Shown in pieces: positions 21,701 through 51,403 of a stretch of DNA of 64,000 nucleotides. Below the pieces are notes generated by a model. That model made no database searches. It saw only the letters and a program-made list of their open reading frames with translations, and had not been told where the DNA came from. The stretch comes from Apostichopus japonicus (lineage: Eukaryota; Echinodermata; Holothuroidea; Aspidochirotida; Stichopodidae): positions 26,833,544 through 26,897,543 of the forward strand of contig NC_092567.1 of the NCBI RefSeq assembly GCF_037975245.1. Reading direction: 5' to 3'. Both the position numbers and the translations under genes were made by a program. The stretch's first letter is position 1. Each line of letters begins with the position of its first letter.

Positions 21701-24491
21701 CTCGTTCAATGCGGCTATGGTTATTATCAAGCATTCTACGGTGACATTACCTTGGAGCATTGGTACGCTCGTTCAATGCGGCCATGGTTATTATCAAGCA
21801 TTCTAAGGTGACATTACCTTGGAGCATTGGTACGCTCGTTCAATGCGGCCATGGTTATTATCAAGCATTCTAAGGTGACATTACCTTGGAGCATTGGTAC
21901 GCTCGTTCAATGCGGCCATGGTTATTATCAAGCATTCTAAAGTGACATTACCTTGGAGCATTGGTACGCATGTTCAATGTGGCTATGGTTATTATCAAGC
22001 ATTCTAAAGTGACATTACCTTGGAGCATTGGTACGCTCGTTCAATGCGGCCATGGTTATTATCAAGCATTCTAAAGTGACATTACCTTGGAGCATTGGTA
22101 CGCATGTTCAATGTGGCTATGGTTATTATCAAGCATTCTACGGTGACATTACCTCGGAGCATTGGTACGCTCGTTCAATGCGGCCATGGTTATTATCAAG
22201 CATTCTAAAGTGACATTACCTTGGAGCATTGGTACTCTCGCTCAATGCGGCTATGGTTATTATCAAGCATTCTAAAGTGACATTACCTTGGAGCATTGGT
22301 ACTCTCGCTCAATGCGGCCATGGTTATTATCAAGCATTCTAAAGTGACATTACCTTGGAGCATTGGTACGCATGTTCAATGCGGCCATGGTTATTATCAA
22401 GCATTCTAAGATGACATTACCTTGGAGCATTGGTAAGCTCGTTCAATGCGGCTATGGTTATTATCAAGCATTCTACGGTGACATTACCTTGGAGCATTGG
22501 TACTCTCGCTCAATGCGGCTATGGTTATTATCAAGCATTCTACGGTGACATTACCTTGGAGCATTGGTACGCTCGTTCAATGCGGCTATGGTTATTATCA
22601 AGCATTCTACGGTGACATTACCTTGGAGCATTGGTACGCTCGTTCAATGCGGCTATGGTTATTATCAAGCATTCTAAAGTGACATTACCTTGGAGCATTG
22701 GTAAGCTCGTTCAATGCGGCTATGGTTATTATCAAGCATTCTAAAGTGACATTACCTTGGAGCATTGGTAAGCTCGTTCAATGCGGCTATGGCTATTATC
22801 AAGCATTCTAAAGTGACATTACCTTGGAGCATTGGTAAGCTCGTTCAATGCGGCTATGGCTATTATCAAGCATTCTACGGTGACATTACCTTGGAGCATT
22901 GGTAAGCTCGTTCAATGCGGCTATGGTTATTATCAAGCATTCTAAGGTGACATTACCTTGGAGCATTGGTAAGCTCGTTCAATGCGGCTATGGTTATTAT
23001 CAAGCATTCTAAAGTGACATTACCTTGGAGCATTGGTAAGCTCGTTCAATGCGGCTATGGTTATTATCAAGCATTCTAAAGTGACATTACCTTGGAGCAT
23101 TGGTACTCTCGCTCAATGCGGCTATGGTTATTATCAAGCATTCTACGGTGACATTACCTTGGAGCATTGGTACTCTCGCTCAATGCGGCTATGGTTATTA
23201 TCAAGCATTCTACGGTGACATTACCTTGGAGCATTGGTACGCTCGTTCAATGCGGCTATGGTTATTATCAAGCATTCTACGGTGACATTACCTTGGAGCA
23301 TTGGTAAGCTCGTTCAATGCGGCTATGGTTATTATCAAGCATTCTAAAGTGACATTACCTTGGAGCATTGGTAAGCTCGTTCAATGCGGCTATGGCTATT
23401 ATCAAGCATTCTACGGTGACATTACCTTGGAGCATTGGTAAGCTCGTTCAATGCGGCTATGGTTATTATCAAGCATTCTAAGGTGACATTACCTTGGAGC
23501 ATTGGTAAGCTCGTTCAATGCGGCTATGGTTATTATCAAGCATTCTAAAGTGACATTACCCTGGAGCATTGGTACTCTCGCTCAATGCGGCTATGGTTAT
23601 TATCAAGCATTCTAAAGTGACATTACCTTGGAGCATTGGTACTCTCGCTCAATGCGGCTATGTTTATTATCAAGCATTCTAAGGTGACATTACCTTGGAG
23701 CATTGGTACGCATGTTCAATGCGGCTATGTTTATTATCAAGCATTCTAAAGTGACATTACCTTGGAGCATTGGTACTCTCGCTCAATGCGGCTATGGTTA
23801 TTATCAAGCATTCTTAAGTGACATTACCTTGGAGCATTGGTACGCTCGTTCAATGCGGCTATGGTTATTATCAAGCATTCTACGGTGACATTACCTTGGA
23901 GCATTGGTACGCTCGTTCAATGCGGCTTTGGTTATTATCAAGCATTCTACGGTGACATTACCTTGGAGCATTGGTACGCTCGTTCAATGCGGCTATGGTT
24001 ATTATCAAGCATTCTAAGGTGACATTACCTTGGAGCATTGGTACGCTCGTTCAATGCGGCTATGGTTATTATCAAGCATTCTACGGTGACATTACCTTGG
24101 AGCATTGGTACGCTCGTTCAATGCGGCTTTGGTTATTATCAAGCATTCTACGGTGACATTACCTCGGAGCATTGGTACGCTCGTTCAATGTGGCTATGGT
24201 TATTATCAAGCATTCTAAGGTGACATTACCTTGGAGCATTGGTACGCTCGTTCAATGCTGCTATGGTTATTATCAAGCATTCTAAAGTGACATTACCTTG
24301 GAGCATTGGTACGCTCGTTCAATGCGGCTATGGTTATTATCAAGCATTCTACGGTGACATTACCTTGGAGCATTGGTACGCTCGTTCAATGCGGCTTTGG
24401 TTATTATCAAGCATTCTACGGTGACATTACCTTGGAGCATTGGTACGCTCGTTCAATGCGGCTATGGTTATTATCAAGCATTCTACGGTAA
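15769..24491. repeat. 67-bp satellite array, about 130 monomers, with higher-order repeats
   Basis: The monomer includes ATTCTACGGTGACATTACC, TTGGAGCATTGGTACGCTC, GTTCAATGCGGCTATGG and TTATTATCAAGC, 67 bp in total. Variants (TAAAGTGA for TACGGTGA, AAGCTCG for ACGCTCG, CCATGG for CTATGG, GCATGTTC for GCTCGTTC) recur in a fixed order. Marker monomers recur after 2278, 2479, 2546 and 2881 bp, that is 34, 37, 38 and 43 monomers. Since 67 is not a multiple of 3, each monomer shifts the frame; the many 61-codon open frames are artefacts. Confidence 0.97.
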
Positions 24492-24692
24492 TATTACATT
24501 TTGACCTCTCTTGCCATTACGTGAAAGTTAAGTATTACTGCAATCACTAATCATGTCTTAAAACTTGAGACTTTTTTGATCTCTCCTATTCCGATTCTGT
24601 GGAGGTGCCACCTTTTAGTAGCTTGACAGACAGACAGACAGATAGATAGACGGACAGACAGATATACAGATAGATAGTTAGATAGATATATA
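24492..24692. repeat. unique spacer then GACA/GATA microsatellite
   Basis: About 130 bp of unique sequence follows the satellite edge. From about 24624 to 24690 a mixed (GACA)n/(GATA)n tract abuts the 5' end of the next LINE. Confidence 0.75.
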
Positions 24693-26440
24693 AATTTGTC
24701 TAGTATTGCTAGTATTGGAAACTCTGATCATTCCACGGTACTTCTTATCCCTGTTTACAAACAAAGAACTATTAAAGTATGGTCTCAAGAGACAACTGAT
24801 GAGCTGCAAGACTGTTTTGCTGACACGGATTGGGATCTGTTTAAAGAGGATAATGACCTGCATTCATTCACTGATACTGCTTACATTAACTTCTGTCATG
24901 ACGTCTGCATACCTACTAAGACTGTTACGCAATATCCAAACAACAAGCCGTGGTGTGACAAGGTGATCAAAGCCAAACTTAAGGCCAAGGATGAAGCGTA
25001 TCGGACCAAAACCACCGATCCGGATCTTTACCACCGAGCAAAGTCTGACCTCCGGAAAGCCATTAAGAAAGCTAAGAGAGCCCAGAAGGATCGCATTGAG
25101 CAAAAGTTTCAGACCGCGAACTCGAGAGAGGTATGGGCCAACATCGAGGCAATTACTCAATATAAAGGGGTAAAGAGGTCAGTAAACACTGATGATGCAG
25201 CATTGCCAGATAAGCTCAACGAGTTTTACGCACGTTTCGACAGAGGAAATAGTAACCAGCCGATCCCAGTGAACAACGGACATGCTACTGCGCCATTCAA
25301 TAGTGACATAACTTTGGTAAACTATAAATTTAAGCGGCTAAATGAACGTAAAGCTGCTGGACCTGACGGTATCACCCCCAAGCTGCTAAAGATGTGTGCC
25401 GAGCAACTCGCTGAAGTTTATACGAACATCTTTAATTGGTCACTTAGCTTATGTGAGGTTCCTAGGTCATTCAAAGATGCAATAATAGTTCCAGAAAAGA
25501 AGAGAAACGTATCATGTTTAATTTTAGTTGAACATTTTAAATTATTGGAACACCTCAACTTCCCTGCGTCTATTTGTGATTGGATTTTAGATTTCCTTCT
25601 ATGTCGCAAACAAACTGTTAGAGTAGGCAACATTCATTCAGCATCTATTGTTTTAAACACTGGTACTCCTCAGGGTTGTCTTTTATCACCGCTATTGTAC
25701 TCTCTGTTAACGTACGATTGCAGAGCCGCCGATCAGAACTCACGAATCATCAAATTTGCAGACGACACTACAGTGACTGGTTTGATTATCAACGAAGATG
25801 AAAGTGGCTACCTTGACGAAGTGGATCTCTTGGCGAAATGGTGCACCAATAACAACCTGATTCTGAATGTGAACAAAACTAAGGAATTAATTGTGGACTC
25901 TAGACGAAACAAAAAAAAAGGACCCTATTTTGATAAATGGATCTGTTGTGGAACAGATAAATGCATTTAAGTTGCTAGGCACGTTTATTATGGAAAACTT
26001 ATCATGGAACACAAATACTGGTGAGATACTGAAAAAGGGACAACAGAGACTATTCTTTTTGCGAGCCCTAAAATCGTATGGTGTCAGTCAGAATATTTTA
26101 ATTAATTTTTACCGTGCTATTATTGAAAGTATTTGAACTTTAAACATTTTAGTCTGGTTTGGTCGCGCAAGTCAGAATGATCTTAGGAAACTAGAATCTG
26201 TCATAAGAAACGTGGAGCGCCTCATTGGCACAGGCCTACCATCCCTTCACTCACTCTACCAGGAGCGAACATTAAAATGTGTTGAAAATATATTGAATGA
26301 TGATTACCACCCAGCAACTGATTATTTCAAGTTCCTGCCTTCAGGCAAAAGAATGCATACTTTTAAGGGTTCTAAAAGATTTACTGACAGTTTTTATCCT
26401 TCTGCTGTGAAGATATTCAATGCACACCAGAACCGTTAAA
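24693..26440 (+). pseudogene. LINE reverse transcriptase with internal deletion and several breaks
   Basis: Recognisable parts in order: KPWCDKVIKAKLKAKDEA; ERKAAGPDGITPKLLK; AIIVPEKK; then an abrupt jump at about 25500 to a region reading NFPASICDWILDFLLCRKQT; TGTPQGCLLSPLLYS (motif B); FADDTTVTG (motif C); and LNVNKTKELIVDSRR. The segment that should carry motif A, the first catalytic aspartate, is missing between AIIVPEKK and the DWILDF region. A frameshift falls in the A run near 25910, and a stop interrupts the frame at 26134. The C-terminal end (FKFLPSGKRMHTFKGSKRF, then SFYPSAVKIFN) resembles the Rex1/L2 group. It cannot encode an active enzyme. Confidence 0.82.
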
Positions 26441-26939: not shown

Positions 26940-29900
26940 TCAAGTCCATGGAATCCAGTTTCCACCATGCAGCATTGGGTTGGAATTAGGATCTCTTGGC
27001 TTCCTTGCAGATGGTATCATAGTGGAATTGTAAAACCGCAGTCGGTCCATTAGTTCTGACAATATGTCTGTTGACGAATTAAATATAAATGTATGAAAGA
27101 AAGTGATTTCTTAAGAACAGGCTCTAAAATACACTTTCAGAAACTTAATCCAAAGTCTGACAAAGAATTCATGAAGCTAATAAACTTCAACTTTGCAGAT
27201 ACATAGTTAATATAAGTTTTCTTAATGCAAACAAACCAAAAAATGTTATTTAGTTTATAAATATCTTACAAGCATGCAATATCTAATATGAAACACATAA
27301 CGTTAAAAACAACCAGAACGCCAGTTGGTTTTGTGGTTCCTTTGCTGACTTTCTGACAAATGTAGAGCAGTTGAGTTAAATTTGAAATAACTATCTGACT
27401 AATGTAGAGCAGTTGAGTTAAATTTGTCCAAGAATGAAGTGAAAACCAGAAAAGATCAGAGATTCCCAGCTCTTACTTGTAGCACTCCCTTGTGGGCATC
27501 GACCATTCCATCTACAGTATCGAACGTTTATTCCAAAATGTTTCAATATCCAGAAAGAACAGTCTTCTTATTTGAAATATACTCAAATATATGTATGAAT
27601 AAATGGACATTTTCTTTTACCAATTTTGAGCTACCAATCTTGTAACCATCCCTTTAATAATTGTTATTAATGAATGACGCACTCCTGACATTGTATATAC
27701 ACTGTGAAATATTTTCACAACTTACTGCCAAAGCAAATGTCATCTACTATAAATCATAGAGAAAATGCCCAATTTTGAGACCTCTTGAGCCAATTTTTCC
27801 ACAATTTGAGATAACCTGTTGATCCCTTGAAGCCCAGAGGGTGAAAACTGATAAGTAACCATAAAAGTACTGATTACTGTATGTATTGAGACTTACAGAG
27901 CCCTTCACTAAACTAAACTGAATTTGACCAAACCATGTTCATCAAAAGAACATAATCATAGCACTTGAGAATGCACATGTTAATTGGAACTTTAATTTTG
28001 GAGTTTAAAAGGTTTTCAGACTTTGACCTCCGGCTGATCTCACTTGACCTTTGACATCTACAAATTTCAATATGATTCTTGCACTCACCAAGCTGGATCT
28101 ACATACTAAGTATGAAGTTCAAGAAAGATGTACCAATTGTGTTTCATGTTTACAAGATTTTTTTGACTTAAATGTTGACTGCAAATGACCTTTGACCTCC
28201 ACCAGTTTCAACAAAGATGTAGTTTTAAAGTCATCATATTTACAAAGTTTTCAGACTTTGACCTCTGTTGACTACAAATGACCACCTAACTTCACAGAAA
28301 AGAACAGGGTTCTTTTACCCAGGTCAACAGATCCATATACCTAGTATGAACTTAATCCACCATGAACTTCCTTTAGTTACGTTGTTTACAAGCAAGTGTC
28401 ACATACGCACACACACGCCCACACACACGCACGCACCATCACATAGATTCCTTCAACCTGCAGTAAGGAATGATAAACTAACATCTTTGTACAAACTCAG
28501 TCATCAAAAGAAAATAAATAAAAAGTCTGACAACAACATTATTGAGGGTCAATATTAACTTCTGCACTGGTTTCTCTTCTCAGACTCAATTCATAAAACT
28601 TACCTGGATACATATCTGCAAGGTTGTAGAATTCACATGGATCATTAGGGATGTGGTACAAACAGGGTTTCTTAGCAGGGTCACAGTTGGTGCTAGCATT
28701 AGCCGGAATCGGTGGGCAGTATACAACACTTGCCTTTGGCAATTTCTCATGTTCTGTTTGGACAGAATGGAGATAATCATATAACACATAGGGTGTATGA
28801 CACTTAGAAAACTTTATGCACAACTGGACAAACTTACGATAGAATTAAATATCTTTCTCCCTTCCCTTCCCTTCCCTTCCCTTCCCTTCCCTTCCCTTCC
28901 CTTCCCTTCCCTTCCCTTCCCTTCCCTTCCCTTCCCTTCCCTTCCCTTCCCTTCCCTTCCCTTCCCTTCCCTTCCCTTCCCTTCCCTCCCCCTCCCCTCC
29001 CTTCCCTTCCCTTCCCTTCCCCTCCCTTCAATTTTAGTAACATTTTCACACAAATTGTCGATACATTTCTTGAAGCATGATATGATAGCGTAAGATAACT
29101 CTACTTACCATTATTTTCACCCTCTGGAGGATACCAGCCGGACCATTGACCATCATAAACATTACCAGTGATGACCTTGTAATCACCGCTTCTGAGAGCT
29201 CCATAGCTACCAACTGGATCGATGTTTAGTAGTATCTCCCTGCGAGGAGACGGACTATCACTGAAAGACGCAATAAGAGACCAACAATCGTGTTCAACAC
29301 TTAAATCATACACTTGCGAAACAATTAATGGGTGATAAGTATGCTTTATCCTTGCATCAGAAAAGAAGGCAGTTTTAGTCTTTATTCACAGATGTGAGGG
29401 GGAAAGGGGCTGAAGCTGGTCAGAGGATGGAGATATGGGAGAGGGGGGAAGGTTATATAATCTGCCCTGTTTCAGAAATTCTTTGAATGTAATTATTATA
29501 TCCTCATTTGTACATTGAGAACAGGAAAAAATGTTTGGATTTTTGTTAATCCTAAATAAACTGACAAAATTTAAGAATTAGATTTATTTCAATTCAAACA
29601 GATACAAGATTAAAAGTTGACCAAACCAAATAATTTTCCAATGGTAAGGTGATTGGAGGCAGAAATATAAATTCTGTTCTGCTTCAAAAATAATTTTATA
29701 ATTTAAATAAAAGTGGAACTGGATATCCTAGCCTCACTTTTACATTGGGACCACCATGAAATATTTCCAATATTGGTATTTTTAGAGAACTGGCAATAGA
29801 CATCACATGTGACGCACAATTGGGTGTCGTCGGCATACATCATATACTGAAACCATGACGGACAATTATATCCTCAATGGGTGCCGTGTACAAACTAAAT

Positions 29901-32900
29901 AATTCTGGTCCCAACACTGAACCCTGGCGGACACAACAATCTAAAGGTTTAACATCCGACATGACCGACCCAACTGTCAAACCTCAAATATGAACTAAAC
30001 CACTTATGTACCACACCATCAATACCAAACCTCGAACACAACCAGCAGGTTCTCAGAGAGATTCCTCAACACATGGACTAGTTTCTTGAAAGGATTATCC
30101 TAGGATTATCCTAGGATTATCCTAGGATAGTCCTAGGATTATCCTAGGATTACCCTAGGCCCCATGTAACATACTTTGATATTGTATCCCAGATATCGAA
30201 CCCATCGTAAGTATCTTCGCTGATGTTGCCACCGGCTAATTTCAGGATCGTTGGGTAGAAATCAGTCACGTGGAGGAGTTTATCAGAAATCCGACCCTTC
30301 TTGTTAATGAGTGGGCTGTGTACAAATGACGTTCCCCTAACTCCTCCTTCCCAGAGGGTGTGCTTCACACCCCTCAATGGGAAGTTGTTGGCATAGTTAC
30401 CATCAAAGCCATGAGCTGGACCTCCATTGTCGGTTGTAAATATTATTATGGTGTTATCATACAGGCCAGCTTCCTTCAGGTAAGCAGTTACATTACCCAC
30501 AGAGTCATCTAAAGCAGCTACCATGCCTGGAGATAAACAAGAATATAACGCAGAATGCAGAATGTGACGCAGTTATAAGGTATCCATGGAATACTTTCCT
30601 TATTATCTGCTATTATCTGCTTATTATATGCTGTTACCTCCGACCATATGGTAGCCTAACACAATGGGAAAATCTTGCCTAACCATTGGTTTGCAAAAAA
30701 ACAAAAATCACACTGCGTAGGATTGGGTAATAAATAAGTATCGCTTCGGGCGGGTACCCGGATACCCCATGCAAACACTATTTGAAAACAGTTCACAATA
30801 ACATGGTTATATGCTAAACTAATAAAGCTTTGGTTGACACAATCCGATTGAGCACCAAAATGTTTTGTTTTGTATTATTTGTGTACATTTTCAATTTTGA
30901 TTGAAAATTTGAAAGGACTTTCAAGTTTTTTGCAAACTTAAGCTTAAAGAGGCAACAACATGAATAAAGCAATTAATATTCAAATAAACTGTAAAAATTC
31001 TTCCTACCAGCAAATTTTCTACGCTTTTCAAAGCTGATGTGAGGAAATCGATCGATATATTCTTGTGGGGCTTGTAGAAGGTCATCTTTGTTGGCACTGT
31101 GTACGGCTTGGTGGGCCAGGTAGAGAAAGAGGGGCTGTCAAGAATAAATCAGAGAGGACTTGTTTGAGCAGCATGGCCTGAGGAATACTGGGGGAGCACA
31201 GGAGAGAGTAGTAGAAGGCAGAATGGGTGAAATTAGGATGGATGAAGGTGGTGTCCCTAATGGAAGGCAGATTGGGTAAAATTAGGATGGATGAAGGTGG
31301 TGTCCCTCATGGAAGGCAGAATGGGTGAAATTAGGATGGACGAAGGTGGTGTCCCTCATGGAAGGCAGAATGGGCGAAATTAGGATGGACGAAGGTGGTG
31401 TACCTCATGGAAGGCAGAATGGGCGAAATTAGGATGGACAAAGGTGGTGTACCTCATGGAAGGAAGAATGGGTGAAATTAGGATGGACGAAGGTGGTGTC
31501 CCTCATTGAAAGCAGAATAGGCTAAATTAGGATGAAGGTATAAAATAATATTCAGAAGGATGATTTGAAAAGAAATAATATTGCTAACAATCTTTGATAG
31601 CAATTTAAGAAAATGTCTTTGTAAGGAATGTTTTAAGGTTTTGCCTCTCCTACTGCTGACCAGTCTATAATATATTTAAGAGGAATTTCTCTGAAAGTAG
31701 TACCCTTTTCAGTTCAAAGAATCTTGGTTCATTTTTTCAATAAACATATACGGTAGGTACAATGCAATAGTGCATATTATCCATTACAATGTACATGTGC
31801 CAATATATGCATGTTATAGATTTTAGACATTTTCAAAGCAATTAATGGCCTGCCCTAAAAAATAACTCACCTTGCTAGGGTCATGACCTTTGATGATTTC
31901 TCCTGCTTTTGCTGTAAATATCTCTGTTGAGTATTGGCCAAACACTGGCTTGTATACATTCCCATCTTGGTGAAAGTCAAACCCTGTGAAATTTTGCTTT
32001 AATAAACAGCAGATATCATGAATATGCAACAGCAATTGCCACATTGTTGTAAATAATAACATTAATATGTAAACCAAACTAAACTGTCAGACATATACTA
32101 AGCCAATGATAATGCTAATGAATAACCAATACAATTACACAATACAACTACATCATGAATATGCAACAGCAATTGCCACATTGTTGTAAATAATAACATT
32201 AATACGTAAACCAAACTAAACTGTCAGACGTATACTAAGCCAATGATAATGCTCATGAATAACCAATTACACAATATAACTACATCATGAATATGCAACA
32301 TTTTATCGGCATGTCTTCTAGGTAGTTTTGACAATTTCCTAATGTTCATACCACTCTATACTGTATTCTCGTATCGTGCTTCAGAGCACTTGAACTGACA
32401 GTAAAAACAGTTCCTGACCTTTATCGAATAGAAACAAGAATGTTCATACTGCTCATACTGTCAGTACACCTTCCTTGAAGCATTAAAGTACAGTATGAAA
32501 GCAATAATCAACACTAGGTTTTATTTCATAAGCAATTGCTGTAAGCATGGATTAAAATATCATCATTCCTGACCATAACAAAGTCAATATCATTTATCAT
32601 CTTATGAACATGTAACAGCTCACCTCATGAATATGCAATAGCTTATCTCATAATTGATATGGTTGAAGAAGTCACCTTTACCACAGTAGTATCCATAGTA
32701 AGAATCAGGGCCGTCTTAAGAGATCACCGGGCCCTGGGCCCGGTAATGGAGCGGGGCCCCTCAATCAAGTGAGTTCGAAAAGATTTGCGTGAAAAATTGA
32801 CATCCTTGACAAGCGCTCACACATAGACATGCCTGCATTTACCAACCCTCCCTATGTCGCGCATAAAGCATACAACTTTAGCTGAATAACATACGTGATA

Positions 32901-35900
32901 TATCTAAAAGCTGAAATACATTATAGAAGAGTAATCTTCCAGTTGCCCTCCATCCCTTCCCTAACAATACTGGACTCACCATTTGTAACACCCTTGTGTT
33001 GAGTCTTTCAACTGAAAGGAGTGTAGGCGGTTTTACACTATCTAACGCAACGTAGTCGCCAAGCGCATGAAGTATTTTTAAGGGAGGGCGCGAGGAACAT
33101 GAACTTATAGCATGCTCCTCATGGTGAAACATAATTGCACCTATTAGGTGAATTGAGTGTACTGTTAATGGTAGGAGAGACTAGCGTAGGTTCTTATGAC
33201 CAACTAGACCGGTTTCTGCTCTCAAACTTTATAGGAGGAGCTTCATCAGTAGTAGCCTTTGAATATTTTATATTCGGCCTGGGCGTCTCGTTTTCAAAAT
33301 GCATCTATTTTCTGTGCACAAGTTTTTATGGACTCATAGTGCAGCAATAAGAGCATCTAAAAGAGCTTCGTGTGAACCTTGAGAGTCAGCTGATTCTTCG
33401 TTAGTACGAAACCTTAAGTTAACAAGTAAATCTTTGAGATTTTGGGCCCTTTTGTAGGCTCGAATCGGTTCTTTTGGAAACAGTTTGGATAATTCCGCGT
33501 GTTGCGAGATTAAGTGCCAATGTTTCAAAAGTGCTTTTTTTTTCAAATGCGTGATTTTGATATGGGGTGTATAGGTGAGCTTGAACACAAGTGGTGGTTC
33601 CTTTTGTTTAGGTTCGGTAGTGAGGTATTGCCCACGGTTTCAAATTTTATGCCTTTCGTGGCTGAGGCAATATCCTCTTTCTTATTGTTACGGAGTAACA
33701 GTTTCTCTGTGTAAGCCTTCGGGGGATTGTATATTCCAGGGTTGCCAACTCAGATTGGAATATTTAATGTCAAACTCTCAAGTGTTTCACCAACTCTCGC
33801 CACAAGTTGTCAAGTATCGAATTCAATCAGGCATAATGGCCTATTCAAAAAGTTTTCCTCCCATATTAAGACATGGGGTTACTATGATTGCGGGGCCCCT
33901 GACATCACGGGCCCTGGGCCAGGGCCCAGTGGGCCCATGCGTTAAGATGGCCCTGGTAAGAATCAAAGCCTCTTTGTGTTCCAATGTAAACCTCATTATA
34001 GAATATATAACAGCTCACCTCATGAATATGAATAAGCTTACCTCATAATTGATATGGTTGAATTAGTCACCTTTTCCACAGTAGTATCTATAGTAAGAAT
34101 CTAAGCCTCTTTGTGTTCCAATGTAAACCTCATTATAGAATATGTAACAGCTCACCTCAATATGTAACAGCTCACCTCATGAATATGCAATAGCTCACTG
34201 CATAATTGATATGGTTAAAGTAGTCACCCTTACCACAGTAGTATCCATAGTAAGAATCAAAGCCTCTTTGTGTCGCAATGTAAGCTTTATTATAGAATAT
34301 GTAACAGCTCACCTCATGTATATGCAATATCTCACCTTATGAATATGCAATAGCTCACCTCATAATTGATATGGTTGAAGTAGTCACCTTTACCACAGTA
34401 GTATCCATAGTAAGAATTAAAGCCTCTTTGTGTTCCAATGTAAACCTCATTATAGAATATGTAACAGCGCACCTCATGAATATGCAATAGCTCACCTCAT
34501 AATTGATATGGCTGAAGTAGTCAGCCTTACCACAGTAGTATCCATAGTAAGAATTAAAGCCTCTTTGTGTTCCAATGTAAGCCTCATTATAGAATATGTA
34601 ACAGCTTACCTCATGAATATGCAATAGCTCACCTCATAATTGATATGGTTGAAGTAGTCGGCATTACCACAGTAGTATCCTTAGTAAGAATTAAAGCCTC
34701 TTTGTGTCGGAATGTAAACCTCATTATAGAATATGTAACAGCTCACCTCATGAATATGCAATAGCTCACCTCATAATTGATATGGTTAAAGTAGTCACCT
34801 TTACCACAGTAGTATCCTTAGTAAGAATTAAAGCCTCTTTGTGTTGGAATGTAAACCTCATTATAGAATATGTAACAGCTCACCTCATGAATATGCAATA
34901 GCTCACCTCATATTTGATATGGTTAAAGTAGTCACCCTTACCACAGTTGTATCCATAGTAAGATTCAAAGCCTCTTTGTGTTCCAATGTAAACCTCATTA
35001 TAGAATATGTAACAGCTCACCTCATGAATATGCAATAGCTCACCTCATAATTGATATGGTTGAAGTAGTCACCTTTACCACAGTAGTATCCATAGTAAGA
35101 ATTAAAGCCTCTTTGTGTCGGAATGTAAACCTCATTATAGAATATGTAACAGCTCACCTCATGAATATGCAATAGCTCACCTCATATTTGATATGGTTAA
35201 AGTAGTCACCCTTACCACAGTTGTATCCATAGTAAGATTCAAAGCCTCTTTGTGTTCCAATGTAAACCTCATTATAGAATATGTAACAGCTCACCTCATG
35301 AATATGCAATAGCTCACCTCATAATTGATATGGTTGAAGTAGTCACCTTTACCACAGTAGTATCCATAGTAAGAATTAAAGCCTCTTTGTGTCGGAATGT
35401 AAGCTTTATTATAGAATATGTAACAGCTCACCTCATGAATATGCAATAGCTCACCTCATAATTGATATGGTTGAAGTAGTCACCTTTACCACAGTAGTAT
35501 CCATAGTAAGAATTAAAGCCTCTTTGTGTCGGAATGTAAACCTCATTATAGAATATGTAACAGCTCACCTCATGAATATGCAATAGCTCACCTCATAATT
35601 GATATGGTTGAAGTAGTCACCTTTACCACAGTAGTATCCTTAGTAAGAATTAAAGCCTCTTTGTGTCGGAATGTAAGCTTTATTATAGAATATGTAACAG
35701 CTCACCTCATGAATATGCAATAGCTCACCTCATAATTGATATGGTTGAAGTAGTCACCTTTACCACAGTAGTATCCATAGTAAGAATTAAAGCCTCTTTG
35801 TGTCGGAATGTAAACCTCATTATAGAATATGTAACAGCTCACCTCATGAATATGCAATAGCTCACCTCATAATTGATATGGTTGAAGTAGTCACCTTTAC

Positions 35901-38900
35901 CACAGTAGTATCCATAGTAAGAATTAAAGCCTCTTTGTGTCGGAATGTAAACCTCATTATTGAATATGTAACAGCTCACCTCATGAATATGCAATAGCTC
36001 ACCTCATAATTGATATGGTTGAAGTAGTCACCTTTACCACAGTAGTATCCATAGTAAGAATCAAAGCCTCTTTGTGTCGGAATGTAAGCTTTATTATAGA
36101 ATCCAAGATGCCACTGATGATGTAAAGAAGAAAAAAGCCCCCCAAAAAATAATAAACAAAAGTGGGAAAATTTTTCGAAATTTTTTAAACCCAAACAAAA
36201 CAGTAGTAAAGGGGTCAATTTATGCAAGAGAATCCACTAAAATAAACTACAAAGAAATCCTAAAAAGAGGTTCTCAGTATTGGCTCTGAATTTTTAACAT
36301 TTACAATATAAATGAAAACTTTATATGAGAGAAATTCTGACTCAAATTACTCCATAACTTTGAAGAGGATTCAATTAGCCAATTAAATGATTCCACAAGG
36401 GAAACAATTAAAATGTTGTCATGAAACCTTTATCTTGTTTCAACATGAATGTGGTCATTTAACTCAATCTGTCTAATTTCTGACATATTTAAGGCAATAT
36501 TGATGACTTTTTGTGAGAGAGAAAATAAATGTCTGCAAAACAAGAAAGAAACAATTTCTAAATGATATTAAAAAGAATAAACTGGATGATTTCATGCATT
36601 TCATTTCTCAATTCAGAAAAAGTGAGATTAATACTGCCTACTAAACATGACCTGCTTGTGTACCATACATATTTCTCAATCTAGATAAAGTGAGATTAAT
36701 ACTGCCTACTACACATGACCTGCTTGTTAGTGTACCATACATATTTCTCAATTCAGAAAAAGTGAGAATAATACTGACTACTAGACTTGACCTGCTTGTT
36801 AGTGTACAATACATATTTCTCAATTCAGAAAAAGTGAGATGAATACTGCCTACTAGACTTGAGCTGCTTGTTAGTGTACCATACATATTTCTCAATCTAG
36901 ATAAAGTGAGATTAATACTGCCTACTACACAAGACCTGCTTGTTAGTGTACCATACATATTTCTGAATCTAGATAGAGTGAGATTAATACTGCCTACTAG
37001 GCTTGAGCTGCTTGTTAGTGTACCATACATATTTCTCAATCTAGATAAAGTGAGATTAATACTGACTACTAGACTTGACCTGCTTGTTAGTGTACAATAC
37101 ATATTTCTCAATCCAGATAAAGTGAGATTAATACTGCCTACTACACATGACCTGCTTGTTAGTGTACCATACATATTTCTCAATTCAGAAAAAGTGAGAT
37201 TAATACTGCCTACTACACATGACCTGCTTGTTAGTGTACCATACATATTTCTCAATCTAGATAAAGTGAGATTAATACTGCCTACTAGGCTTGAGCTGCT
37301 TGTTAGTGTACCATACATATTTCTCAATTCAGAAAAAGTGAGATTAATATTGCCTACTAGACTTGAGCTGCTTGTTAGTGTACCATACATATTTCTCAAT
37401 CTAGATAAAGTGAGATTAATACTGCCTACTACACATGACCTGCTTGTTAGTGTACAATACATATTTCTCAATTCAGAAAAAGTGAGATTAATACTGCCTA
37501 CTACACAAGACCTGCTTGTTAGTGTACCATACATATTTCTCAATCTAGATAAAGTGAGATTAATACTGCCTACTAGGCTTGAGCTGCTTGTTAGTGTACC
37601 ATACATATTTCTCAATTCAGAAAAAGTGAGATTAATACTGCCTACTAGACTTGAGCTGCTTGTTAGTGTACCATACATATTTCTCAATCTAGATAAAGTG
37701 AGATTAATACTGCCTACTACACATGACCTGCTTGTTAGTGTACAATACATATTTCTCAATTCAGAAAAAGTGAGATTAATACTGCCTACTACACAAGACC
37801 TGCTTGTTAGTGTACCATACATATTTCTCAATCTAGATAAAGTGAGATTAATACTGCCTACTAGGCTTGAGCTGCTTGTTAGTGTACCATACATATTTCT
37901 CAATTCAGAAAAAGTGAGATTAATACTGCCTACTAGACTTGAGCTGCTTGTTAGTGTACCATACATATTTCTCAATCTAGATAAAGTGAGATTAATACTG
38001 CCTACTACACATGACCTGCTTGTTAGTGTACCATACATATTTCTCAATTCAGAAAAAGTGAGATTAATACTGCCTACTAGGCTTGCGCTGCTTTTTAGTG
38101 TACCATACATATTTCTCAATCTAGATAAAGTGAGATTAATACTGCCTACTAGGCTTGAGCTGCTTGTTAGTGTACCATACATATTTCTCAATCTAGATAA
38201 AGTGAGATTAATACTGCCTACTAGACTTGACCTGCTTGTTAGTGTACCATACATATTTCTCAATCTAGATAAAGTGAGATTAATACTGCCTACTACACAT
38301 GACCTGCTTGTTAGTGTACCATACATATTTCTCAATTCAGAAAAAGTGAGATTAATACTGCCTACTAGGCTTGAGCTGCTTGTTAGTGTACCATACATAT
38401 TTCTCAATCTTGATAAAGTGAGATTAATACTGCCTACTACACATGACCTGCTTGTTAGTGTACCATACATATTTCTCAATCTAGATAAAGTGAGATTAAT
38501 ACTGCCTACTACACATGACTTGCTTGTTAGTGTACCATACATATTTCTCAGTTCAGAAAAAGTGAGATTAATACTGCCTACTACACATGACCTGCTTGTT
38601 AGTGTACCATACATATTTCTCAATCTAGATAAAGTGAGATTAATACTGCCTACTAGGCTTGAGCTGCTTGTTAGTGTACCATACATATTTCTCAATCTAG
38701 ATAAAGTGAGATTAATACTGCCTACTAGGCTTGAGCTGCTTGTTAGTGTACCATACATATTTCTCAATCTTGATAAAGTGAGATTAATACTGCCTACTAA
38801 ACATGACCTGCTTGTGTACCATACATATTTCTCAATCTAGATAAAGTGAGATTAATACTGCCTACTAGGCTTGAGCTGCTTGTTAGTGTACCATACATAT

Positions 38901-41900
38901 TTCTCAATCTTGATAAAGTGAGATTAATACTGCCTACTACACATGACTTGCTTGTTAGTGTACCATACATATTTCTCAATTCAGAAAAAGTGAGATTAAT
39001 ACTGCCTACTAGGCTTGAGCTGCTTGTTAGTGTACCATACATATTTCTCAATCTTGATAAAGTGAGATTAATACTGCCTACTACACATGACTTGCTTGTT
39101 AGTGTACCATACATATTTCTGGTTTCAGTTGTTTTCCGCATACGTTACTTTCCGCTGATTACTTTCCGCTGAAAAAATTCTTCTGCGGAAAACACCGATT
39201 TTTCACTTGCCTGTACACTATATTTTTCCGCAATTTTGAGATACCAAATTCAGGCAGGATGATTAAAATAACATGAGAAAGTATCAAAGAACGTCGATCA
39301 AGGATGGTTAGACTGAGTTCATGTCAGAATAGTTAAGCTGCTTATAATTTAGAGGAGGCTTGGGGTGTTCGTAATTACGAATTATTAAAGAAGCATATAA
39401 TACTGGGCAAAGGGACGCCCGCGTTATGAAGGATTGAGTATCTAATTAAGTATTAAATATTCGGCCCGCGTAATGATGGTTTAACAAAAAAGGTGTAAAA
39501 GGCGGTATCTTTGATTTTCGCTGGAAATAAAATGGCTGTATAAGTAAGCCTTACAGCCTAAGCTACAAGTACAACCTTAGCTACTGTATCCTAAATCTAG
39601 TCTCGAAGCTACATTTTATCCTGTTACAGTCAAATCCTATCTTATCCATCTTCCTAAATCCCTCCATGTGCCTAATAATTTCAGTAAGTCATTCTGTTCC
39701 TCCCAAAAAGAAACGGTACTTTCCGTTGAAAAAAACGTTGTTTTCCGCTGACAAATTTGTTTGCGGAAAACAACGTTTTGTTTCAGCGGAAAGTAACGTG
39801 TGCGGAAAACAACGGTACCCCATATTTCTCAGTTCAGAAAAAGTGAGATTAATACTGCCTACTACACATGACCTGCTTGTTAGTGTACCATACATATTTC
39901 TCAATCTAGATAAAGTGAGATTAATACTGCCTACTACACATGACTTGCTTGTTAGTGTACCATACATATTTCTCAATCTAGATAAAGTGAGATTAATACT
40001 GCCTACTACACATGACTTGCTTGTTAGTGTACCATACATATTTCTCAGTTCAGAAAAAGTGAGATTAATACTGCCTACTACACATGACCTGCTTGTTAGT
40101 GTACCATACATATTTCTCAATCTAGATAAAGTGAGATTAATACTGCCTACTACACATGACTTGCTTGTTAGTGTACCATACATATTTCTCAATTCAGAAA
40201 AAGTGAGATTAATACTGCCCATTACACAAGACCTGCTTGTTAGTGTACCATACATATTTCTCAATCTTGATCAAGTGAGATTTGGTTGCTTTTTTACCCT
40301 TTGTTCAAAACAAAGTCTCTGTTTGTTCTTGCTGAGCATTTATTGAGAAGCCCTGGCATAAGATGTTACATGAGTAGTCACATCAATTCAGCCTGTTTTC
40401 AGCAAAATTTCATGCATCTTCTAAATCTATTACAATAAGTAAATTAACAGCAGAAAGCAGGCAGGATGGTTATAAAAAAATTTGAAAGGAGCAAAGGAAG
40501 TGTTGCAGTTTAAGTATGGAAATGCTGAAGCAGAAACTGTTTAACCTCATAACAGGCATGTAGAATGACAAACAATGATACCTTGCCAACTGCATGGGTC
40601 GTGTAACCTAATTGTCTCAATTTTTCTGGTAACATGGTGAAGTTCAGAGGAACCCCATAGGGTCTCGATGCACCTATTGTGAGTGTCTGCATACCTGTCA
40701 ACAGGGTTATCAAAAAGCAACATGATATTAAAAGTGCACCCCCTTCTTCCAGATATAATACCTTTCCGACTGCATGTGTCTTGTAACCCAACTGTCTTAG
40801 TTTTTCTGGTAACATGGTGAAGTTGAGGGGTACTCCATAGGGGTGAGTTGCAATGATGACACCAGTCTGCAAACCTGTCGACAGGATTTATCAAAATACA
40901 AGGGCAGGTTCACCATGTTAAGATTACTTGATCCTATAATTTCCCAATGGCATCTCTTAAGCCAGTTGTCTCAACTTTACAGTTAGCATGGAGAAATGAG
41001 TAACATTGTATCAGTCTACACCTCTGTCACCAGGCAAGGTGTATCACCAATTTATTATGCAGCAAACACAGTGTTCTTTCATCACCAATTTGCAATTATC
41101 GTTATACCTTTCCGACTGCATGCGTCTTGTAACCCAATTGTCTTAGTTTCACTGGTAACATGGTGGAGTTGAGCGGGACTCCATACGGCTCAGTTGCTTC
41201 GATGGTATCGGTCTGCATACCTGTCAATAGCGTATTTTAAATGTAAATATCGCTCCTGACTTTGAAAACTTGGCAAGTTTGGGGGAATGTGACCATGACA
41301 ATGCCCTCTTGACCAATGATTTAAATCAGAAACAAATTTTGACCTGCAATATCATTTAAATGTTCAAGTATGGAATCACCAAACAAAAGCCATTTCACCT
41401 TTAAACTGAGGCTCTAAAAGATATGTAACAAACAAGAACTAGATAGAAGGATACCTCTATACACAATTAAAAGAAGTCCCCACTAAAACCTGTACCTGTA
41501 TGTATGGCATATCTACCAGTGAGCAGAGCACTTCGAGTTGGTGTGCAAATTGGTAACACATAATAGTTGAACAAAATCACACCATCAAGGGCAAGCTTGT
41601 CCATATTTGGTGTCAATATTTGAGGAGAGCCATGAAAGCTTACATCATTCCAACCCTGAAAAATAAAGAAAAACAAAATAATTTTCATGAATAAATGTCT
41701 AAGAACTTTCTAACACACCAGACAAACATTGTACATTCATCCATGAACAAACTATGCAGGTGTACAAATTGAGGCTCTGTGACATTAATATCCACGGCCC
41801 TAACCTGGATATAGGGGCTCCAGTGAACGGATGCTATAGAGTGGCAAGCTTACCTTGGCATATGTACCAAGTTTCTGAACTTACCAAATCATCGGCTACA

Positions 41901-41998
41901 ATCACAACCACGTGAGGCTGACTGAAGGCCACAACACCAGAAACCACTGACAGAAAAAACACCACAGAAAAATGGACGAGTTGAACAGAGGTCACCAT
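26940..41998 (-). CDS. arylsulfatase (arylsulfatase B-like), complete, 10 coding exons with triplicated exon 3
   Basis: Secreted or lysosomal enzyme that hydrolyses sulfate esters; in ARSB, of sulfated glycosaminoglycans. Exons in coding order: 41885-41998, 41496-41655, one of three exon-3 copies (41108-41220, 40762-40874 or 40582-40694), 36003-36113, 31871-31996, 31008-31134, 30175-30526, 29109-29260, 28604-28753, 26940-27067. Phases agree and give 510 residues (ARSB is about 530). The start at 41998 lies just inside an exon with acceptor TTTCATACAG and begins a signal peptide (about 1-26). Active-site features: DD at 36-37; CTPTR at 75-79, with Cys75 the formylglycine precursor; GK then WHLG at 128-133 (Lys129, His131); AHQAVH with His220; TTDNGG with Asp283 and Asn284; [10 protein letters not shown] with Lys305. 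The C-terminus reads GGNWIPWT. The exon-5 acceptor (AAAG at 31997) was chosen because it keeps phase; the stronger-looking CACAG 14 bases further in does not. Conserved introns and full catalytic residues indicate a working gene. Confidence 0.93.
27068..28603. other. arylsulfatase intron 9, with a dispersed repeat carrying nuclear-receptor-like DR1 sites
   Basis: This intron holds at about 28010-28380 a repeat with recurring GACTTTGACCTC and TGACCTTTGACCTC phrases and the phrase CTAAGTATGAAGTTCAAG, repeated in part as CTAGTATGAACTTAATCCA. TGACCTTTGACCTC near 28188 is the complement of AGGTCA-A-AGGTCA, a DR1 site. The rest is AT-rich with no gene. Confidence 0.55.
28856..29028. repeat. (CCCTT)n pentanucleotide microsatellite
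   Basis: About 34 units in arylsulfatase intron 8, with a few CCCCT variants at the right end. Open frames through it on either strand are low-complexity artefacts. Confidence 0.95.
29261..30090. other. arylsulfatase intron 7, with possible antisense LINE remnant
   Basis: AT-rich intron. Around 29800-29990 the sequence contains fragments such as GTCGTCGGCATACATCATATA and AACACTGAACCCTGGCGGACA, wording typical of antisense LINE reverse transcriptase (YADD and PQGSVLGP regions). Too short and broken to classify. Confidence 0.35.
30091..30159. repeat. 11-bp palindromic tandem repeat next to the exon 7 donor
   Basis: Six units of AGGATTATCCT, a perfect palindrome around a central T, lie about 15 bases inside arylsulfatase intron 7 (donor at 30174). 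Confidence 0.85.
31212..31540. repeat. 49-bp minisatellite in arylsulfatase intron 5
   Basis: About 6.7 units spaced 49 bp apart (starts near 31213, 31262, 31311, 31360, 31409, 31458, 31507). Each contains GGAAGGCAGAATGGGTGAAA and GGATGGACGAAGGTGGTGT. Confidence 0.92.
32017..32300. repeat. tandem duplication of about 137 bp in arylsulfatase intron 4
   Basis: CATGAATATGCAACAGCAAT starts at 32017 and 32154, and the first part (CATGAATATGCAAC) again at 32286. Intervening sequence (TAAACCAAACTAAACTGTCAG) is nearly identical between copies. The motif CATGAATATGCAA and the 137-bp spacing are shared with the exon-derived array further right. Confidence 0.8.
32322..32515. mobile_element. fold-back MITE, copy 2
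   Basis: Similar to 7392-7592 along its length: CTAATGTTCATACC, TATCGTGCTTCA, CTTGAACTGACAGTA, GACCTTTATCGAATAGAAA and CATACTGTCAGTACA correspond to positions in copy 1. The ends are less well preserved. Confidence 0.55.
32706..33955. mobile_element. hAT-like DNA transposon, non-autonomous, 1250 bp
   Basis: Terminal inverted repeats CAGGGCCGTCTTAA and TTAAGATGGCCCTG are flanked by the 8-bp duplication GTAAGAAT (32698-32705 and 33956-33963). Subterminal GGGCCCTGGGCC sequences follow on both sides. TIRs starting CAG and 8-bp duplications are characteristic of the hAT superfamily. No transposase domain was recognised; the interior includes a Penelope-like fragment. Confidence 0.88.
33100..33620 (-). 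pseudogene. Penelope-like element reverse transcriptase, C-terminal fragment
   Basis: On the minus strand a frame reads [17 protein letters not shown], then [28 protein letters not shown]. The pattern of a lone HW, FP.EP and a Y/F-KR-..NL.DLLV phrase is typical of the end of Penelope-like reverse transcriptases. Further along, [17 protein letters not shown] sequence precedes the edge. It lies inside the hAT-like element, so it was either carried by it or inserted into it. Confidence 0.55.
36114..36602. other. arylsulfatase intron 3, unique part beside exon 4
   Basis: AT-rich intron sequence; on the minus strand the exon 4 acceptor is TTTACATCATCAG at about 36114. No other feature recognised. 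Confidence 0.6.
36603..39120. repeat. 72-bp minisatellite, about 35 units, open on both strands
   Basis: The unit contains AAGTGAGATTAATACTGCCT, a variable ACTA(CACA/GGCT)TGA segment, TGCTTGTTAGTGTACCATAC and ATATTTCTCAAT(CTAG/TCAG)A. As 72 is divisible by 3, both strands stay open for hundreds of codons (24-residue repeats). A four-unit pattern recurs every 288 bp, for example the CTACACAAGACC variant at 37501 and 37789. Four-base deletions at about 36653 and 38811 break the frame. It lies in intron 3 of the arylsulfatase and is judged non-coding. Confidence 0.93.
39121..39821. mobile_element. non-autonomous DNA transposon, 701 bp, 8-bp target duplication
   Basis: It interrupts the 72-bp array and is flanked by the 8-bp duplication ATATTTCT (39113-39120 and 39822-39829). 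Inverted ends share GTTGTTTTCCGCA(T/C)ACG and TTACTTTCCGCTGA, with extra subterminal TTTTCCGC and TTTCCGCTGA motifs in both orientations. There is no coding sequence. An 8-bp duplication suits hAT or P-type elements, but the ends do not show a typical CAG start. Confidence 0.85.
39822..40290. repeat. 72-bp minisatellite, distal segment, about six units
   Basis: Continuation of the 36603-39120 array beyond the transposon, with the same unit. It ends in diverged sequence at ATCAAGTGAGATTTGG. Confidence 0.92.
40582..40694 (-). CDS. arylsulfatase exon 3, copy C
   Basis: Also 113 bp with the same phases; acceptor CCTGTTGACAG, donor AAG|GTATCATTG. It encodes [10 protein letters not shown], then [20 protein letters not shown] and TTHAVGK. 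Its acceptor region resembles that of copy B (TTTTGATAA then CCTGT), so the duplicated segment included intron sequence. Confidence 0.9.
40762..40874 (-). CDS. arylsulfatase exon 3, copy B
   Basis: Also 113 bp with the same phases; acceptor CCTGTCGACAG, donor AAG|GTATTATATC. It encodes [10 protein letters not shown], then [20 protein letters not shown] and KTHAVGK. It differs from copy A mainly in the seven residues before PYGVPL. Only 67 bp separate it from copy C. Confidence 0.9.
41108..41220 (-). CDS. arylsulfatase exon 3, copy A
   Basis: A 113-bp exon entered in phase 1 and left in phase 0, with acceptor TATTGACAG and donor AAG|GTATAAC. It encodes [10 protein letters not shown], then [20 protein letters not shown] and KTHAVGK. 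It aligns with the ARSB stretch between the formylglycine motif and WHLG, and ends with the active-site lysine. It is the copy nearest exon 2. Confidence 0.9.
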
Positions 41999-48701: not shown

Positions 48702-51403
48702 GTTAGGGTTAGGGTTATGGTTATGGTTAGGGTTAGGGGTAGGGGTTAGGGGGTAGGGGTTAGGGGGTAGGGGTAGGGGGTAGGGTTAGGGGGGTTAGGG
48801 TTAGGGTTAGGGTTAGTATGGTTAGGGTTAGGGTTAGTATGGTTAGGGTTAGGGTTAGTATGGTTAGGGTTAGTATGGTTAGGGTTAGTATGGTTAGGGT
48901 TAGTATGGTTAGGGTTAGTATGGTTAGGGTTAGTATGGTTAGGGTTAGTATGGTTAGGGTTAGTATGGTTAGGGTTAGGGGGTTAGGGTTAGGGTTAGGG
49001 GTTAGGGTTAGTAGGGTTAGTAGGGTTAGGGTTAGGGTTAGGGGTTAGGGTTAGGGTTAGGGTTAGGGTTAGGGTTAGGGTTAGGGTTAGGGTTAGGGTT
49101 AGGGTTAGGGTTAGGGTTAGGGTTAGGGTTAGGGGTTAGGGTTAGGGTTAGTAGGGTTAGGGTTAGGGTTAGGGTTAGTAGGGTTAGGGTTAGGGTTAGG
49201 GTTAGTAGGGTTAGGGTTAGGGTTAGGGTTAGTAGGGTTAGGGTTAGGGTTAGGGTTAGTAGGGTTAGGGTTAGGGTTAGGGTTAGTAGGGTTAGGGTTA
49301 GGGTTAGGGTTAGGGTTAGGGTTAGGGTTAGGGTTAGGGTTAGGGTTAGTAGGGTTAGGGTTAGGGTTAGGGTTAGGGTTAGGGTTAGGGTTAGGGTTAG
49401 GGTTAGTAGGGTTAGGGTTAGGGTTAGGGTTAGGGTTAGGGTTAGGGTTAGGGTTAGGGTTAGGGTTAGGGTTAGTAGGGTTAGGGTTAGGGTTAGGGTT
49501 AGTAGGGTTAGGGTTAGGGTTAGGGTTAGTAGGGTTAGGGTTAGTAGGGTTAGGGTTAGGGTTAGGGTTAGGGTTAGTAGGGTTAGGGTTAGGGTTAGGG
49601 TTAGGGTTAGGGTTAGGGTTAGTAGGGTTAGGGTTAGTAGGGTTAGGGTTAGTAGGGTTAGGGTTAGGGTTAGGGTTAGGGTTAGTAGGGTTAGGGTTAG
49701 GGTTAGGGTTAGGGTTAGGGTTAGGGTTAGGGTTAGGGTTAGGGTTAGGGTTAGGGTTAGGGTTAGGGTTAGGGTTAGGGTTAGGGTTAGGGTTAGGGTT
49801 AGGGTTAGGGTTAGGGTTAGGGTTAGGGTTAGGGTTAGGGTTAGGGTTAGGGTTAGGGTTAGGGTTAGGGTTAGGGTTAGGGTTAGGGTTAGGGTTAGGG
49901 TTAGGGTTAGGGTTAGGGTTAGGGTTAGGGTTAGGGTTAGGGTTAGGGTTAGGGTTAGGGTTAGGGTTAGGGTTAGGGTTAGGGTTAGGGTTAGGGTTAG
50001 GGTTAGGGTTAGGGTTAGGGTTAGGGTTAGGGTTAGGGTTAGGGTTAGGGTTAGGGTTAGGGTTAGGGTTAGGGTTAGGGTTAGGGTTAGGGTTAGGGTT
50101 AGGGTTAGGGTTAGGGTTAGGGTTAGGGTTAGGGTTAGGGTTAGGGTTAGGGTTAGGGTTAGGGTTAGGGTTAGGGTTAGGGTTAGGGTTAGGGTTAGGG
50201 TTAGGGTTAGGGTTAGGGTTAGGGTTAGGGTTAGGGTTAGGGTTAGGGTTAGGGTTAGGGTTAGGGTTAGGGTTAGGGTTAGGGTTAGGGTTAGGGTTAG
50301 GGTTAGGGTTAGGGTTAGGGTTAGGGTTAGGGTTAGGGTTAGGGTTAGGGTTAGGGTTAGGGTTAGGGTTAGGGTTAGGGTTAGGGTTAGGGTTAGGGTT
50401 AGGGTTAGGGTTAGGGTTAGGGTTAGGGTTAGGGTTAGGGTTAGGGTTAGGGTTAGGGTTAGGGTTAGGGTTAGGGTTAGGGTTAGGGTTAGGGTTAGGG
50501 TTAGGGTTAGGGTTAGGGTTAGGGTTAGGGTTAGGGTTAGGGTTAGGGTTAGGGTTAGGGTTAGGGTTAGGGTTAGGGTTAGGGTTAGGGTTAGGGTTAG
50601 GGTTAGGGTTAGGGTTAGGGTTAGGGTTAGGGTTAGGGTTAGGGTTAGGGTTAGGGTTAGGGTTAGGGTTAGGGTTAGGGTTAGGGTTAGGGTTAGGGTT
50701 AGGGTTAGGGTTAGGGTTAGGGTTAGGGTTAGGGTTAGGGTTAGGGTTAGGGTTAGGGTTAGGGTTAGGGTTAGGGTTAGGGTTAGGGTTAGGGTTAGGG
50801 TTAGGGTTAGGGTTAGGGTTAGGGTTAGGGTTAGGGTTAGGGTTAGGGTTAGGGTTAGGGTTAGGGTTAGGGTTAGGGTTAGGGTTAGGGTTAGGGTTAG
50901 GGTTAGGGTTAGGGTTAGGGTTAGGGTTAGGGTTAGGGTTAGGGTTAGGGTTAGGGTTAGGGTTAGGGTTAGGGTTAGGGTTAGGGTTAGGGTTAGGGTT
51001 AGGGTTAGGGTTAGGGTTAGGGTTAGGGTTAGGGTTAGGGTTAGGGTTAGGGTTAGGGTTAGGGTTAGGGTTAGGGTTAGGGTTAGGGTTAGGGTTAGGG
51101 TTAGGGTTAGGGTTAGGGTTAGGGTTAGGGTTAGGGTTAGGGTTAGGGTTAGGGTTAGGGTTAGGGTTAGGGTTAGGGTTAGGGTTAGGGTTAGGGTTAG
51201 GGTTAGGGTTAGGGTTAGGGTTAGGGTTAGGGTTAGGGTTAGGGTTAGGGTTAGGGTTAGGGTTAGGGTTAGGGTTAGGGTTAGGGTTAGGGTTAGGGTT
51301 AGGGTTAGGGTTAGGGTTAGGGTTAGGGTTAGGGTTAGGGTTAGGGTTAGGGTTAGGGTTAGGGTTAGGGTTAGGGTTAGGGGTTAGGGTTAGGGTTAGG
51401 GTT
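48702..51403 (+). repeat. telomeric TTAGGG array, 2.7 kb, degenerate to perfect from left to right
   Basis: The G-rich strand reads left to right. From 48702 to about 48810 the units are degenerate (TTATGG, TTAGGGG). From 48817 to 48970 a 15-bp variant (GGTTAGGGTTAGTAT) repeats about nine times. To about 49690 TTAGGG is mixed with TTAGTAGGG. Beyond that it is almost perfect TTAGGG to 51403, with one TTAGGGG near 51380. TTAGGG is the common animal telomere repeat. Confidence 0.97.

Follow-up and report, generated by a model that had tools for sequence, protein, structure and literature searches.

A minus-strand arylsulfatase-B-like gene of the sea cucumber Apostichopus japonicus carries its third exon in triplicate, and we consider it probable, at roughly 0.7, that the three copies form a mutually exclusive exon cluster, with one copy used per mRNA and each swapping a loop that ends at the active-site lysine. 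Mutually exclusive use is the reading that appears to fit best the logic of the reading frame, the pattern of selection and the splice-site data. That the choice of copy would also tune the substrate of the enzyme is clearly less certain than mutually exclusive use itself, and the two claims are kept apart below.

A complete sulfatase gene with three copies of exon 3

The window, by which we mean the whole 64-kb stretch of DNA analysed, covers the final 64 kb of chromosome contig C7. The gene within it is complete, with ten exon positions (E1 to E10), and its features, together with those of the cluster formed by the copies of E3 (A, B and C), are as follows:

41885 to 41998, minus strand: E1, with the start codon, a signal-peptide-like stretch and ADDL, which we take to be the metal-site Asp pair; phase 0 at its end
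41496 to 41655, minus strand: E2, with GWNDV... and the formylglycine-type motif CTPTR; phase 1 at its end (IHTG)
41108 to 41220, minus strand: E3A, 113 bp, putative alternative exon
40933 to 41038, minus strand: relic of a fourth exon-3 copy with its upstream border, between A and B
40762 to 40874, minus strand: E3B, 113 bp, putative alternative exon
40695 to 40761, minus strand: intron between B and C, 67 bp, shorter than any other measured in the gene; open, and its retention would keep the frame
40582 to 40694, minus strand: E3C, 113 bp, putative alternative exon
36114 to 40581, minus strand: intron between C and E4, 4468 bp, holding a 72-bp minisatellite at 36603-39120 and 39821-40282
36003 to 36113, minus strand: E4, with WHLG... 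following the E3-encoded lysine; phase 0 both in and out
31871 to 31996, minus strand: E5, acceptor ..ttattaaag/CAAAAT, set by comparison with the paralog L009
31008 to 31134, minus strand: E6, coding exon of the sulfatase model
30175 to 30526, minus strand: E7, carrying TDNGG
29109 to 29260, minus strand: E8, coding exon of the sulfatase model
28604 to 28753, minus strand: E9, coding exon of the sulfatase model
26940 to 27067, minus strand: E10, C-terminus ...HGGNWIPWT and stop codon TGA

When spliced in silico with any single copy of E3, the whole coding model encodes 510 aa. It contains the motifs DDLGWND, CTPTR, GKWHLG, LAHQAVH and TDNGG, whose catalytic roles are presumably those known for the sulfatase family. 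All three forms match Pfam Sulfatase (PF00884, E 5e-58 to 1e-57, with the first 468 aa as query), and the closest solved structure is human arylsulfatase B (ARSB; PDB 1fsu, E 6.6e-106), as found with a 376-residue early draft carrying copy C that was four residues short where E5 begins and had Lys instead of Asn at the E7/E8 junction. The likeness to ARSB lies in the sequence and the catalytic motifs, and by these family features we classify the gene as an ARSB-type sulfatase with a CxPxR formylglycine motif. A pseudogene is ruled out, as E1 to E10 are intact through to the stop codon. A missing exon between E4 and E5 was also considered when the frame failed with the E5 acceptor cacag/GG; comparison with L009 re-placed that acceptor at the position listed above, the frame closes, and therefore no exon is missing there.

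The copies A, B and C are all bounded by AG and GT, each is open in one frame, and each enters in phase 1 and leaves in phase 0; the coordinates, the length of 113 bp, the phases, the borders and the open frames given in the sequence-only reading of this DNA all hold. They are 95/113 (A-B), 85/113 (A-C) and 85/113 (B-C) identical at the nucleotide level, and tblastn among them returns mutual matches at E about 1e-16, from which common descent follows rather than chance resemblance. Duplication in the assembly or between haplotypes was rejected as an origin: the 681-bp cluster matches the genome once, and copies that are 75-84% alike are not assembly echoes. As neighbouring homologous exons of equal length and phase, the three have the composition by which mutually exclusive clusters are recognised. 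Human clusters of this kind (377 of them, 60%, according to a passage of the catalogue PMC5740500) likewise consist of homologous neighbouring exons in the same phase, but here exclusivity is inferred from sequence only and the gene is an echinoderm sulfatase.

The copies had been said to differ mainly in a block of seven residues. This stands for the nucleotides, whose differences are enriched in codons 1-11 (Fisher p = 0.003 for A-B, 0.009 for A-C and 0.0006 for B-C), and for five of the nine variable amino-acid positions, which fall in block 4-10; position 1 and positions 18, 23 and 31 lie outside it. Gene conversion between A and B is possible but would not be needed to explain the pattern of divergence, because all three pairs diverge more in codons 1-11.

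The sulfatase family has many paralogs in this genome. A whole-genome protein search with copy C gave 14 matches, namely A, B and C themselves and 11 other loci, each showing a single exon 3 when about 1.5 kb on both flanks is taken in, so that at this sensitivity the triplication is special to this gene. The paralog L009, on the same chromosome (C7:24078500-24088400), shares its exon borders around exon 3 with this gene and differs from it by its single exon 3. The mutual similarity of A, B and C is 81%, against 54% or less to any paralog over the full exon, so the duplication probably took place after the split from L009. Two ARSB-like loci with long open frames, L032 (C2:14613216-14615567, 1213 aa) and L029 (C11:17366298-17368574, 802 aa), are apparently intronless, retrocopy-like sulfatase genes.

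Reading frame, splice signals and selection

E2 leaves in phase 1 and E4 begins in phase 0, and among the eight possible subsets of E3 copies, spliced in silico, the full 510-aa frame results from three: A, B or C alone. The other five (none, AB, AC, BC and ABC) run into a stop at codons 98-155, which lies 1001-1169 nt before the last exon junction; with stops more than 1 kb upstream of that junction, these products should be targets of nonsense-mediated decay. Joint inclusion would be unproductive in all four multi-copy subsets, as would the empty one, with a single exception: B, the retained 67-bp intron and C together make 293 nt (2 mod 3) with no stop, and the frame is kept to give 570 aa. 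The earlier statement that none, two or three copies shift the frame before exon 4 holds for these splices; retention of the B-C intron, which it did not mention, also keeps the frame. A comparable arrangement is described for U2AF1 (PMC5224494), whose duplicated exons Ab and 3 differ by seven amino acids and whose transcripts carry stops and undergo decay when both exons, or neither of them, are included. U2AF1 differs in having two copies, with a long polypyrimidine tract at exon Ab, whereas here there are three copies, all with poor tracts. The same report proposes a duplication that carried the upstream intron along; the similar TTTTGATAA...CCTGT.GACAG before both B and C suggests that this may have happened here too.

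Splice sites were compared over 14 acceptors and 15 donors from the sulfatase gene and L009, leaving out the E10 acceptor. The acceptors of A, B and C have the fewest pyrimidines (8, 9 and 10 of 17, A being the poorest; the other 11 range from 11 to 15), and their donors have the fewest matches to U1 (5 of 9; the other 12 range from 6 to 9). The sequence-only reading had called these splice sites good, which is wrong, since they are the poorest of those compared. Because the copies are related, their weak sites do not count as three independent facts, but weakness of this kind would be in keeping with exons among which splicing chooses.

The intron between B and C stands out by its length of 67 bp, other introns between E1 and E9 measuring 229 bp or more. 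Of its yUnAy branch-point candidates, two are 34 and 52 nt away from the B donor and a third is only 3 nt from the acceptor. Passages in PMC7969005 and PMC5740500 put the steric limit for the distance between donor and branch point at ~50 nt, and the candidates in the B-C intron would be near it. For exons 4a and 4b of OGDH, the former ties exclusivity to branch points less than about 50 nt from the upstream donor; there the branch points were mapped, whereas here they are candidates, and in the 67-bp intron between B and C only. The A-B intron, at 233 bp, is not sterically limiting, so exclusion between A and B rests on decay or on other regulators. Docking and selector RNA pairing of the Dscam type is unsupported as such a regulator: in a crude, single-species test in which the intron following C was represented by its first 400 nt, no pairing beyond shuffles was found in six pairs of introns (best z -1.11, with 10/100 shuffles as good). 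RNA folding of the cluster likewise gave no excess over shuffles, and Rfam gave 0 matches at the gathering score across the 64-kb window. ACUAAC is a branch-point motif and a binding motif of the STAR/QKI type. The C-E4 intron as a whole holds 38 ACTAAC motifs, a total taken irrespective of position, against a single one in the 7249 bp that separate the end of E4 from the beginning of E9, and these motifs downstream of exon 3C could influence the choice of exon 3.

Under a codon model over A, B and C, omega is 0.165 and omega = 1 is rejected (p = 9e-7), by which the three copies together are, or have been, coding sequence under selection. The signal comes with omega 0.05 (p = 1e-8) for codons outside 3-10; for codons 3-10 alone omega is 0.43 and omega = 1 is not rejected (p = 0.22). 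By branch, clear constraint is confined to that leading to C (omega 0.06, p = 5e-7), which in an unrooted tree includes the ancestor of A and B. Neutral evolution is not rejected on the A branch alone (omega 0.70, p = 0.91) or the B branch alone (omega estimated at its upper bound, 20; p = 0.54), and the two taken jointly give omega 0.41, which is not significant (p = 0.10). The 18 nucleotide differences between A and B cause seven amino-acid changes, and 0.7% of neutral draws have as few or fewer; codons 12-37 show a silent skew as well (P = 0.02 in neutral draws). For A and B after they separated, the case for constraint is no more than suggestive.

The relic between A and B offers a comparison within the same array. 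It has kept the acceptor AG and lost the donor GT, it aligns with gaps of 25 and 4 columns, and 62-67 of 105 aligned positions are identical to A, B and C. Its best alignment score was reached by 1/1000 first-order resamples of its intron, and by 0/1000 plain shuffles whether it was aligned with A, B or C, although with A narrowly (53.9 against a maximum of 52.9). We take it as a neutral yardstick, which would show the fate of an unused copy.

These data bear most directly on the possibility that only one copy is used, most likely C, with A and/or B being either once-used alternatives or silent duplicates, still undecayed. We regard this as unlikely, although several observations speak for it: neutral evolution is not rejected on the A or B branches by themselves, the acceptor of A is the poorest (8/17 pyrimidines), the relic shows that members of this array do decay, and the frame stays open in about half (0.51) of neutral draws with 18 changes. 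Against it, the differences between A and B are skewed towards silent ones, both overall (P = 0.007) and in codons 12-37, and A, B and C have all kept their exact length, AG and GT borders and frame, whereas the relic has gaps and is without its donor. It is improbable that the choice of splicing serves mainly as on/off control, setting the level of the enzyme through decaying mRNA while the amino-acid differences matter little. The early stops in five of eight subsets, well ahead of the last junction, the weak splice sites and the lack of significant constraint on the variable block would all agree with such control, but three intact coding copies are not required for on/off control alone, and omega of 0.05 outside codons 3-10 suggests that the copies are translated, or were until recently. 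That B and C are used as one composite exon of 293 nt with the intron retained, giving a protein with a duplicated segment, is very improbable, since the very short intron and the open, frame-keeping stretch that speak for it are offset by GT-AG borders preserved at both intron ends, by 60 additional residues next to the active site for which the ARSB alignment has no equivalent, and by a rough estimate of about 1 in 8 for such an open stretch of the right length arising by chance, which is not rare.

Mutually exclusive use, the reading that we prefer, would have its origin in a working ARSB-type gene in which tandem duplication of exon 3 produced four copies or more, one of which decayed while three were kept as alternatives, one used per mRNA. 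Weak, competing splice sites would commit each mRNA to one copy, the 67-bp intron would hinder the joining of B to C, and A-B, A-C and skipped products would be cleared by nonsense-mediated decay. The chosen copy would exchange loop 96-102 before the active-site lysine with the scaffold kept, and may thereby tune the substrate.

The variable loop and a possible role in substrate preference

Exon 3 encodes residues 93-129, starting after ...RYAIHTG and ending on the lysine of GK/WHLG. The loop that would be exchanged comprises residues 96-102 (112-118 in ARSB numbering, by our own count), and its earlier placement between the formylglycine motif and the catalytic lysine is borne out by CTPTR starting at residue 75 and by the exon-final lysine in GKWHLG, which starts at 128. 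In a family table of nine of the 11 paralogs together with ARSB (L028 and L030, for which the longest match listed is 36 aa, were left out), entropy is 1.89 bits at positions that vary among A, B and C and 0.91 bits elsewhere (one-sided Mann-Whitney p = 0.0016), so by this measure the copies differ where the sulfatase family differs. At the LQH/LMH motif, His is present in 10/10 of the other sequences compared, and Thr in A, B and C.

A second structure allows the variable block to be set approximately against an active site. A GALNS-like exon in the same genome aligns without gaps to chain positions 71-114 of PDB 4fdi, its last residue being the matching lysine. The active-site surface residues of GALNS include Tyr108 and Lys140, according to a figure legend in PMC10816168. 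If position 114 of 4fdi is Lys140, Tyr108 would be position 82, corresponding, when measured backwards from the lysine, to exon position 5 and inside the variable block; this placement is approximate because the GALNS loop is seven residues longer.

That the choice of exon changes substrate preference is best described as plausible, and there is a precedent in another enzyme. The two exclusive exons 6a and 6e of coq-2, described in PMC7434440, are each 134 nt (2 mod 3), remodel the core of the enzyme and switch its substrate, a function that was tested experimentally there. The same source calls clear cases in which splicing switches specificity rare, naming CYP4F3 as well, and says of its own case that single splice events altering enzyme specificity through the catalytic core are rare. 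We put forward as a tentative possibility, and no more strongly, that this one gene gives rise to three enzymes differing in substrate preference, a specificity cassette selected by splicing. Such a cassette might suit the sulfated glycans of sea cucumbers, which are unusual, and the 38 ACUAAC motifs might steer it.

Mutually exclusive exons in tandem are a familiar arrangement, and the sulfatases would be a new enzyme family for them as far as our searches reach. No sulfatase with mutually exclusive or duplicated exons, including any echinoderm arylsulfatase with such splicing, was found among the open-licence papers searched, in agreement, within those papers, with the earlier remark that no such cassette was known in arylsulfatases. 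If the proposal is true, this would be the first specificity cassette selected by splicing in the sulfatase family, within the reach of the same searches. It would also amount to a ready-made experiment on sulfatase specificity, with three naturally occurring loop variants on a single scaffold, and would mean that a gene family of many paralogs has diversified by exon duplication as well.

Repeats within and around the gene

Exon 4 was considered as a second cassette, since intron 4 holds at 33960-36002 a 137-bp tandem array built from exon 4 and its donor site. The array has 16 cores including the real exon 4, with a spacing of 137 in 13 of 15 gaps, and TATGAGGT(A/G)AG follows 14 of the 16 cores. 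An acceptor or the WHLG codons were found in 0/15 of the extra units, in the 27 nt upstream of each core, and the units are therefore not counted as alternative exons. The array would instead present a series of decoy 5' splice sites inside the intron.

In the intron after exon 3C, the 72-bp minisatellite units contain ACACTAACAAGC. The minisatellite is interrupted at 39120-39840 by a segment with inverted GTTGTTTTCCGC...TTTCCGCTGA copies at its two ends, which by eye resembles a small mobile element. Fragments resembling reverse transcriptase, also recognised by eye, lie at 29840-30065 within intron 7 of the sulfatase gene and at 26137-26439 on the plus strand beyond E10. Downstream of the gene, 15769-24497 is occupied by a 67-bp satellite of about 130 copies with a 95% match. 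Towards the other end of the window, a 2.7-kb array of the telomere-type repeat GTTAGG at 48702-51403 lies some 12.6 kb inside the end of the contig, and is followed by blocks of a 204-bp repeat up to base 64000, the end of C7.
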